Part shown: positions 9,263 through 12,622 of the stretch, one piece after another
Position numbering within the stretch: the first letter of the stretch is position 1
Layout: every line of letters begins with the position of its first letter
NCBI GenBank assembly: GCA_021158225.1
Contig: JAGGUZ010000009.1
Location: 1-37,345, forward strand
Length of the DNA: 37,345 bases
Origin: a bacterium
GTDB lineage: Bacteria > Patescibacteriota > Gracilibacteria > UBA1369 > PNNO01
Direction: 5' to 3'
Made by a program: the position numbers and the translations under genes
Notes under the pieces: generated by a model
The model's input: only the letters and a program-made list of their open reading frames with translations
Told to the model about the DNA's origin: nothing
Database searches by the model: none

Positions 9263-9292
9263 TTGACAGGTGAGTGCGCACTCACCTATACT
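9263..9292 (+). promoter_or_regulatory. recA promoter with palindromic operator filling the spacer
   Basis: A consensus TTGACA (9263-9268) and TATACT (9287-9292) are 18 bp apart, and the whole spacer is the perfect palindrome GGTGAGTGCGCACTCACC, extending one base into each hexamer (20 bp, 9268-9287). A regulator bound there would block RNA polymerase directly. By analogy with other bacteria it should be the SOS repressor site, but it matches neither the LexA box of Bacillus nor those of E. coli or alpha-proteobacteria that I know. Confidence 0.85.
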
Positions 9293-10349: not shown

Positions 10350-10805
10350 ATGGAAAATTATTATGATGTACTTCTCCATTATGCTTTAAGATTAATTACA
10401 AGGAAAAGATATACTGAACAAGATCTTAAGAAAAAACTTTTTGCAAAAAAAATTGGGACAGAGCATGATAAATTTAAAGTGATTAGTCGACTTAAGGAGC
10501 TTAAATATATTGATGATAAAGCTTTTGCAAGGGATTATATATCTACGAAGGTAGCGATTAATCCAAAAGGGGAAAGACTTCTTAAGATTGAACTTCGTAA
10601 AAAAGGAATTGATGCTTTTATTATTGAAGATGAGATTGAAAGTGCTCATATCGATGAAGAATTCTTAGCAAAAAAGGTTATATCTAAATACAAGAGAAGA
10701 TATAATGGGTTAGATAAGTATAAAAAGAAGGAGAAAATTATGAGGCTTTTAGTTTCACGCGGGTTTAAAATTGATACTATTTACAAGGTGTTAGATAGGT
10801 GTTAG
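10350..10805 (+). CDS. recX: RecA regulator RecX
   Basis: 151 residues, starting 9 nt after recA. The sequence fits the RecX three-helix repeats: LLHYALRLITRKRYTEQDLKKKL near the N-terminus, then LKELKYIDDKAFARDYI, a later IELRKKGI segment, and a C-terminal IMRLLVSRGFKIDTIYKVL. RecX binds in the groove of RecA filaments and limits their growth. The size and the immediate recA-recX linkage are standard. The pair ends at a hairpin with a T run (10829-10854), although a promoter-like TATAAT lies between the recX stop and that hairpin. Confidence 0.93.
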   Translation: MENYYDVLLHYALRLITRKRYTEQDLKKKLFAKKIGTEHDKFKVISRLKELKYIDDKAFARDYISTKVAINPKGERLLKIELRKKGIDAFIIEDEIESAHIDEEFLAKKVISKYKRRYNGLDKYKKKEKIMRLLVSRGFKIDTIYKVLDRC

Positions 10806-10811
10806 TATAAT
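10781..10811 (+). promoter_or_regulatory. Candidate nusA promoter ahead of the leader hairpin
   Basis: A perfect TATAAT lies at 10806-10811, immediately after the recX stop. The best -35 is TTACAA (10781-10786) with a long 19-bp spacer, so the promoter is uncertain. If it is used, transcription starts near 10818 and the hairpin at 10829-10854 becomes part of the nusA leader. Confidence 0.4.
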
Positions 10812-10828
10812 AGCGAAATGATAGAAAG

Positions 10829-10854
10829 CAGGATAGAAATATCCTGTTTTTTTT
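10829..10854 (+). terminator. Rho-independent terminator between recX and nusA (possible attenuator)
   Basis: CAGGATA and TATCCTG form a perfect 7-bp stem with a GAAA tetraloop, followed by eight T. This is the cleanest intrinsic terminator in the window. It ends recA-recX. Because it also lies 21 nt before the nusA start codon and downstream of a TATAAT, it may act as an attenuator of nusA. Confidence 0.85.
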
Positions 10855-10874
10855 GTAAACTTAACAATATAAAT

Positions 10875-12131
10875 ATGCAATCTCAATTTATGGCCGCAAT
10901 TAATCAAATTTGCGATGAGAAAAATATTCCGCGAGATAAAGTTGTGGAAACCATAAAAGCTGCTTTAAGAGCTGCTTATAGGAAGGATTATGGGCATAAG
11001 GATGAAAATATAGATATCGATCTTAACGAAGGAGCAAATTTTGCTACGGTTTTTTTGGTAAAGGAAGTTGTAAAGAAGGTTGAAAATAAATATCTTGAAT
11101 TAACTGTTGCGGAGGCGAAAAAGTATAAGAAAAATCCAAAAGTCGGTGATGAAATTCGCATAGATGTTACGCCTCTTGAATATGGTAGAATTGCCGCTCA
11201 AGCTGCAAAACAGGTCGTTATTCAAAGAATACAGGAGGCGGAAAGAGAAGTGATGTATGATAATTTTAAAGATAGAGAAAATGAGCTTGTTAATGCTCTT
11301 GTGCATAGAGTTGAGCATCAGCAAGTTTATGTGAATTTAGATAACAAAATTACTACAATGTTACCTCCGGATCAGCAAATTCCCGGAGAACAATATTACG
11401 GTGGGCAAAGAATAAAACTTTATTTGGATAAGGTGATTAAAACTACAAAAGGTCCTCAGCTTGTGATTTCAAGAACCCATCCGAATTTGGTTAGAAAATT
11501 GCTTGAACTTGAAATTCCGGAGATTAAATCCGGAGTTGTGGAAGTTAAGGGTATTGCTCGTGAAGCAGGTGTAAGGTGTAAAGTCTCGGTTTCTTCCAAT
11601 GATGAGAAAATAGATCCTATAGGTTCTTGTGTCGGTCAAAAAGGTGTCCGTGTACAAAATATTATGGAAGAGTTAAATGGGGAAAAAATAGATATTATTC
11701 CTTGGATTGAGAATCAAGAAGAGTACATCAAAATTGCACTTGCTCCGGCAAAAATTACTTTTATAAAGCTTGATGAAGGTGGGAAAAGAGCTTCTTGTTA
11801 TGTTAACCCGGATCAAAGGCCTCTTGCAATCGGAAAGAACGGACAAAATGTAAGGCTTGCTTCAGAACTTACGGGTTGGGAAATTGATATATTGGATATA
11901 GGGGATCTTAACGATAAAGATATGTCAAAGCCTGCGAAGGATAAAGAAAATAAAGTTGAGACTATCGAGGCTCTTGATTTAAAAAAGTCAATCTTGAAGA
12001 AGCTAGAAACTGCTAATTTAACGCTGGTCGAGCAGCTTAAAGGACTTAGTGTTAAAGATCTTACTTCTGTTGAAGGAATTGGAGCAAAGTCGGCGGAGGA
12101 GATTGTTTCAGCTGTGAAGAAAGCTAAATAA
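10875..12131 (+). CDS. nusA: Transcription termination/antitermination factor NusA
   Basis: 418 residues from ATG 10875. The open frame extends upstream to 10818, but that stretch is the terminator hairpin, so the internal ATG (or the one at 10890) is the real start. Domains in order: N-terminal RNA-polymerase-binding domain (1-130), S1 (about 136-200), KH1 with GSCVGQKG (250-257), KH2 with AIGKNGQN (318-325), and a C-terminal helix-hairpin-helix-like segment (about 378-418, SVEGIGAKSAEEI) after a charged linker. NusA slows polymerase, stimulates hairpin terminators and takes part in antitermination. The usual rimP and infB neighbours are absent; it is a single gene here. Confidence 0.96.
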   Translation: MQSQFMAAINQICDEKNIPRDKVVETIKAALRAAYRKDYGHKDENIDIDLNEGANFATVFLVKEVVKKVENKYLELTVAEAKKYKKNPKVGDEIRIDVTPLEYGRIAAQAAKQVVIQRIQEAEREVMYDNFKDRENELVNALVHRVEHQQVYVNLDNKITTMLPPDQQIPGEQYYGGQRIKLYLDKVIKTTKGPQLVISRTHPNLVRKLLELEIPEIKSGVVEVKGIAREAGVRCKVSVSSNDEKIDPIGSCVGQKGVRVQNIMEELNGEKIDIIPWIENQEEYIKIALAPAKITFIKLDEGGKRASCYVNPDQRPLAIGKNGQNVRLASELTGWEIDILDIGDLNDKDMSKPAKDKENKVETIEALDLKKSILKKLETANLTLVEQLKGLSVKDLTSVEGIGAKSAEEIVSAVKKAK

Positions 12132-12134
12132 ATG

Positions 12135-12160
12135 CTGGTTTAAGCACTATAAAAGACCAG
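12135..12160 (+). terminator. Hairpin after nusA, no T run
   Basis: CTGGTTT (12135-12141) pairs with AGACCAG (12154-12160), 7 bp including one G-U pair, just after the nusA stop. The following bases are AT-rich but lack a T tract, so intrinsic termination would be weak. Confidence 0.35.
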
Positions 12161-12322
12161 ATTAATTGTAGTAATTTCAAACATCTAGGATGCTGTAGTT
12201 AAGTTTTTGTTTCTGTAAGCGGTATTTCAGAATTCCAAATTTCAGTGGCGGTAGAAAATGTTTGTATCCATATAGTTGATATTGAAGTGTAATCAGCTTG
12301 CATTTAATCCCTGTTGTAACGT

Positions 12323-12541
12323 CTAAGCCCGTGTATTGATATACTCATCTAATATTCCTTTTCCAATAGTAAAAACACTCCTGCTGATATCAAACTTTCG
12401 GCATATTATACACACATTTCTACACTTCTTGTACTCTTTAAACCATTGATATCTCATCTTTGCCAGTGCTTTTTCTTTTACTTCTTGGTGAATTTTGCGT
12501 AGTTTTGCTTTGGACATCGTGTTTTGGTTAGGGGTAAACAC
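12323..12541 (-). pseudogene. Remnant of an IS481/IS3-like transposase N-terminus
   Basis: A 72-codon frame from ATG 12541 (or ATG 12517) holds a helix-turn-helix resembling the N-terminus of IS481/IS3-group transposases: RYQWFKEYKKC, then CRKFDISRSVF, matching the pattern in which a Trp-Lys-rich segment normally follows. Here that segment is corrupted (TIGKGILDEYINTRA) and stops. No DDE catalytic domain is present, and another frame runs open for about 50 codons downstream (to about 12165) without recognisable similarity. It lies in a 434-bp gap between nusA and pilB. I read it as a decayed insertion; a stand-alone small regulator is less likely. Confidence 0.5.
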
Positions 12542-12622
12542 TTTTACCTTACTACGGTGTTCTAAATGTTTGTGTATTGTATACGGAATTTACTTTCAAG
12601 CCTTTATTTAAAGGGGTTTTTC

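Follow-up and report, generated by a model that had tools for sequence, protein, structure and literature searches.

The leader of the nusA gene in the analysed stretch of bacterial DNA (hereafter the window, 37,345 nucleotides in full) carries a putative promoter, a terminator-like hairpin and a T run, in that order, ahead of the start codon. With more confidence than doubt, this element is interpreted as a promoter-proximal intrinsic terminator (attenuator) of the nusA leader, for which NusA is the best candidate input. Comparison with related genomes shows the promoter, the hairpin, the T run, and their order and spacing to be selected at nusA, as far as can be judged from sequence. The element is probably an autoregulatory attenuator, for which we infer both actual termination and NusA as the signal.

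The nusA locus and its leader

The window comes from a Patescibacteria genome. Its gene order is recA, recX and nusA, followed after some 430 nt by a gene for a PilB/GspE-type ATPase, and the nearest named records among the relatives of the window genome are mostly assigned to Candidatus Peregrinibacteria. The stretch 3' of nusA (12132-12565) is devoid of any clear gene, and the folding of the first 149 nt is not better than that of most shuffled sequences (z -1.2). As an observation in its own right, the recA promoter (9263-9292) contains a perfect palindrome, GGTGAGTGCGCACTCACC (9269-9286), located between the -35 TTGACA and the -10 TATACT. The motif GGTGAG-N6-CTCACC precedes recA in 11 of the 13 relatives listed and, with up to three mismatches allowed, recurs at only one other place in the own genome, about 32 nt before a lexA gene (L177:562-1176:-, TIGR00498, 175.6 bits); the motif is probably this lineage's SOS box, its targets being recA and lexA.

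The start of nusA is an ATG-CAR common to most relatives, and by eye no Shine-Dalgarno-like sequence is seen in the 20 nt that precede it. An in-frame ATG at 10818, from which the NusA reading frame would run through the hairpin, was considered as the start and rejected, both because the later start is common to most relatives and because a sister genome (L002) shows a stop just past the equivalent ATG (ATG ATA TAA).

With respect to the promoter, the preliminary description had proposed a TATAAT lying directly after recX, with a weak -35. The TATAAT indeed follows the recX stop codon (TAG, 10803-10805, by direct reading) and the promoter itself stands; its exact -10 does not, being 3 nt off the frame conserved in relatives, and the weakness of the -35 is not borne out either, as TTTACA is a fair hexamer when the -10 is read 3 nt upstream. 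In this frame a spacer of 17 nt separates TTTACA from the TG-extended TAGTAT (10803-10808), and the putative promoter is best read as TTTACA-17-TGT-TAGTAT, the frame conserved in relatives, rather than as TATAAT. Taken alone, a promoter match has little weight because the region shows no excess of such matches (50 found versus 55.8 expected). All six family members for which the sequence is long enough (L001-L006) display, at the 3' end of recX, TTTACA, 17 nt, TG plus one base and then a -10 that starts in or near the recX stop codon. The hexamer doubles as part of conserved RecX codons, but it occurs as well in five leaders (L033, L034, L047, L097 and L098) whose nearest upstream open reading frame (ORF) is on the opposite strand. 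In some relatives (L041, L043, L044 and L046), the last part of recX reaches into the nusA promoter and even into the hairpin's 5' arm; the bases there serve both as C-terminal codons of RecX and as nusA leader.

Table 1. Features of the nusA leader and of the flanking genes in the window.
Feature	Position	Strand	Remarks
recX	10350..10805	+	upstream gene here and in many relatives; outside the element
-35 element TTTACA	10780..10785	+	within the recX 3' end (Ile-Tyr-Lys codons); same hexamer and 17-nt spacer in relatives
Extended -10 TGT-TAGTAT	10800..10808	+	first three bases of the -10 are the recX stop codon
TATAAT, alternative -10 frame	10806..10811	+	without a fitting -35 at 17 nt; direct reading
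Expected transcription start	10815..10816	+	predicted, about 7 nt past the -10
Terminator hairpin	10829..10846	+	stem CAGGATA/TATCCTG, GAAA loop; core GGAT/ATCC kept across the order
Eight-T run of the intrinsic terminator	10847..10854	+	direct reading
A/T-rich stretch, terminator to start codon	10855..10874	+	direct reading
nusA coding sequence	10875..12131	+	domains NusA_N, S1, KH and C-terminal helix-hairpin-helix

The perfect 7-bp stem, the GAAA loop and the eight T previously described were all recovered by direct reading at 10829-10854, the arms CAGGATA (10829-10835) and TATCCTG (10840-10846) enclosing the loop (10836-10839) and the T run being uninterrupted; the nusA start, said to lie 21 nt past the T run, is likewise correctly placed, with 20 nt between position 10854 and the ATG at 10875. 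As expected for an intrinsic terminator, the hairpin contains G+C and is directly followed by the T run. The stem comprises 7 bp in its core and 12 bp (10824-10851) when the A/U extension is counted. The fold of 10823-10854 reaches -14.3 kcal/mol (z -6.7, equalled by none of 200 shuffles), and the 7 core pairs by themselves -7.9 kcal/mol. Both the best and the centroid fold predicted for 10815-10874 contain only the terminator hairpin, no alternative structure or antiterminator being seen in them. No relevant Rfam family was found at the leader, either over the window at gathering score or in eight leader loci with E up to 10.

Distribution of the arrangement among related genomes

A nusA match was found in 86 of the 89 genomes of the same GTDB order, three of these lacking the 5' part of the gene, and the 84 nusA leaders compared come from 83 genomes, one of which provides two. 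Left out of this set were 23 loci (L008-L030), some of which duplicate records of genomes already in the count. The arrangement was defined as a hairpin with a T run no more than 110 nt from the start, with a promoter score at the cut-off just upstream, and was compared in 82 leaders (two being dropped for short upstream DNA) and in a control set of 247 other genes from 20 genomes. With the promoter cut-off set at 9, it occurs in 55/82 nusA leaders versus 3/247 control genes, and with the cut-off at 10, in 42/82 versus 0/247. For some leaders, among them L041, L043, L046 and L065, the hairpin scans settled on an incorrect hairpin, which makes the leader counts lower. Promoter scoring covered 79 of the 84 leaders, three without a hairpin and two with short upstream DNA being dropped: 62 score at least 9, versus 8.9% of dinucleotide shuffles, and 48 score at least 10, versus 1.3%. 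The spacer of the scored promoters is nearly always 17 nt, and a median of 11 nt (61 values) separates the end of the -10 from the stem.

The hairpin and T run alone are found in 73/82 nusA leaders versus 41/247 control genes, a terminator-like hairpin at the cut-off being absent in 9/82 leaders of the order. This enrichment, together with the position of the T run on the nusA side, speaks against a stabiliser of the RNA 5' end or a DNA operator in place of a terminator, which the location of the hairpin near the expected 5' end and the inverted repeat formed by its stem might suggest; such a function is hardly credible. The occurrence of G-U pairs and of loops of varied length points, moreover, to an RNA rather than to a DNA operator.

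A more serious question is whether the hairpin belongs to recX instead of nusA, as the ordinary 3' terminator of a recA-recX operon, nusA being transcribed from elsewhere or by read-through. The hairpin does begin 24 nt past the recX stop codon, recX lies upstream in many relatives, and any recA-recX transcript reaching the hairpin must also be halted there. Among the 84 leaders, however, the nearest upstream ORF (at least 90 aa) is on the same strand in 68, on the opposite strand in 12 and absent in 4; most of the 12 still carry promoter and hairpin, and in other leaders, to which recX is not adjacent, hairpin and promoter are mostly kept as well. Since an opposite-strand gene is the nearest upstream neighbour in 12/84 leaders, the hairpin is taken as that of nusA, and, with a promoter upstream of the hairpin in addition, the recA-recX terminator is largely refuted and very unlikely. 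The earlier proposal of a terminator within nusA's own leader is thus well supported by the order-wide comparison of promoter and hairpin and by the opposite-strand neighbours.

Outside the order, 20 of 126 genomes with a nusA match were picked for family spread (15 families), the start codon being placed by extrapolation alone in 5 of the 20 leaders. A terminator-like hairpin with a T run occurs in 18 of these 20 sampled leaders, and 10 have a promoter scoring 9 or more immediately before it. Their stems differ from the GGAT/ATCC core, two further examples being L019 and L020. As the hairpin is kept with other stems, the leader plan either predates the core sequence or reaches further than it.

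Sequence and specificity of the stem

Within the order, the core GGAT/ATCC, with up to two changes, is present in the best hairpin of 59/84 leaders from 13 of 16 families, versus 14/346 background non-coding terminator-like hairpins; it is absent from the best-scoring hairpin in the other 25 leaders, and a few relatives display a GGGT core arm with ATCC, ATTC or ACCC. A stricter terminator scan gave, with a looser core pattern, 49/75 leaders versus 2/111 background hairpins, and with the exact core, 27 leaders versus none of the background. In an alignment of 40 sequences chosen by eye from the 84 leaders, 92.4% of the cells pair and 7 of 8 pairs show compensatory changes; 33 cells carry such changes versus 11.1 in shuffles, 0/500 shuffles being as high. 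Because the leaders share ancestry, the pairing and core tests overstate independence, and the spread over 13 families with different upstream genes is a better argument than these counts.

A covariance model was trained on the same 40 hand-picked leaders, including that of the window, which ranks as the best place in its own genome with 37.1 bits, the next place reaching 25.0 bits. Applied to the 89 genomes of the order with E up to 0.3, the model returned 86 matches: 50 in the sense orientation of nusA leaders, 4 antisense to such leaders and 32 elsewhere. At 24 bits or more there are 48 leaders, 13 of them in genomes outside the training set, and these outside genomes also contain 13 other places at or above this score. 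At 30 bits or more, 27 leaders (7 from outside the training set) are accompanied by 5 matches elsewhere, two of which are a single place matched on both strands. The elsewhere matches inspected by eye (8 of 14 fetched loci) sit at the ends of genes, in several cases with a run of A preceding the stem, and are ordinary or two-way terminators, any gene names also being by eye. One such place, G006:C34:8426-8464 (L123), equals the nusA leaders in score (38.0 bits) and follows the end of an ORF which, by eye, resembles a small secreted protein; because both strands score, its hairpin looks like a strong two-way terminator.

The conservation of the core has two possible bearings on the reader of the element. 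It is a tentative idea, less likely to be right than wrong, that the GGAT/ATCC stem is recognised by its sequence, NusA or a partner in this order reading this particular hairpin and not any terminator whatever. The nusA leader would then hold an RNA motif dedicated to feedback, one that arose in a lineage without RimP, separately from the GGGc/gCCC stem of the rimP leader, and that is replaced by other stems in sister orders. Alternatively, the terminator would answer to a different factor, either NusG, which also stimulates intrinsic terminators in B. subtilis (PMC8060035), or some unknown protein that recognises the GGAT/ATCC stem, the sequence of which is kept beyond the needs of termination. 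The location of the element at nusA and the precedent for NusA feedback make such a different factor quite unlikely.

The energy of the hairpin gives no hint of any special NusA dependence, since the leader hairpins are no weaker than others: they stand at -8.25 kcal/mol versus -8.0 kcal/mol for other hairpins with at least 6 T (p 0.50), and this comparison does not support taking weakness of the hairpin to indicate NusA dependence. This ordinary strength, the single structure seen in the predicted folds and the free variation of the stems between orders would suit a constitutive terminator, fixing a low level of nusA mRNA or insulating nusA from recX transcription, in either case with no feedback. 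However, a weaker promoter would be a simpler route to the same result, and regulation is favoured by the upkeep of a promoter and a terminator at one gene across the class, as well as by the NusA feedback known in B. subtilis (PMC12288461); a constitutive role is accordingly regarded as unlikely.

Proposed regulation and known systems

NusA promotes termination at hairpins. In the autoregulatory attenuator favoured here, RNA polymerase would start near 10815, the hairpin would be made within about 35 nt, and the polymerase would either stop near 10854 (about +40), within the T run, or read through into nusA. The fraction stopping would set the amount of NusA, more NusA leading to more stopping and hence to less nusA mRNA. 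With a hairpin that starts nearly at the 5' end of the RNA, a riboswitch, an antiterminator or an upstream reading frame would have little space, and the likely input is therefore a factor acting on the polymerase.

A comparable autoregulation, by NusA-stimulated termination in the leader, is known for NusA of B. subtilis from a review (PMC12288461), a terminator there being likewise situated in the leader between promoter and gene. By sequence comparison the same succession of promoter, terminator and nusA occurs in the present leader. In B. subtilis the response to NusA is reported, whereas the element described here, from another phylum and another gene neighbourhood, is a candidate for such a response. 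In the rimP-nusA-infB operon of S. agalactiae, the study (PMC4448216) describes termination 31 nt past a mapped start and short and long RNAs that share a single start, and proposes a NusA feedback. That operon starts with rimP and was mapped by RNA-seq, whereas the start and the stop (about +40) are predicted here.

A further close parallel is the rimP leader (Rfam RF01770; Naville and Gautheret 2010, PMC2965389), which has a conserved GGGc(...)gCCC stem with NusA as the suggested reader. Like the rimP leader, the nusA leader consists of a short, sequence-conserved terminator hairpin and a T stretch with no visible antiterminator; unlike it, the core is GGAT(c)...(g)ATCC rather than GGGc(...)gCCC, and the gene is nusA itself rather than rimP first. 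The RF01770 covariance model gives in the own genome three places of at most 14 bits, versus a gathering score of 47, and none at nusA. By gene, core and model the element is not a rimP leader, yet it probably works like one. The RimP_N domain (PF02576) was detected in 0/89 genomes of the order, 10 of 14 control genomes being positive, so that the order as a whole seems to lack RimP, a ribosome maturation factor. Owing to this absence and to the unrelated gene that follows nusA in the window, the element is considered to follow nusA and not rimP.

Within the library searched, no paper was found on transcription attenuators of Peregrinibacteria or on NusA leader terminators of Patescibacteria. 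Elsewhere the leader governs rimP, nusA and infB jointly, which makes the guarded product ambiguous; here the leader terminator stays with nusA without RimP, and NusA is therefore singled out as the controlled product and as the natural candidate for the signal. The likeliest view is that a NusA feedback by leader termination, already known from other bacteria, would occur in a distinct form in a large group of very small, uncultured bacteria, as a defined and testable regulatory RNA of this group.
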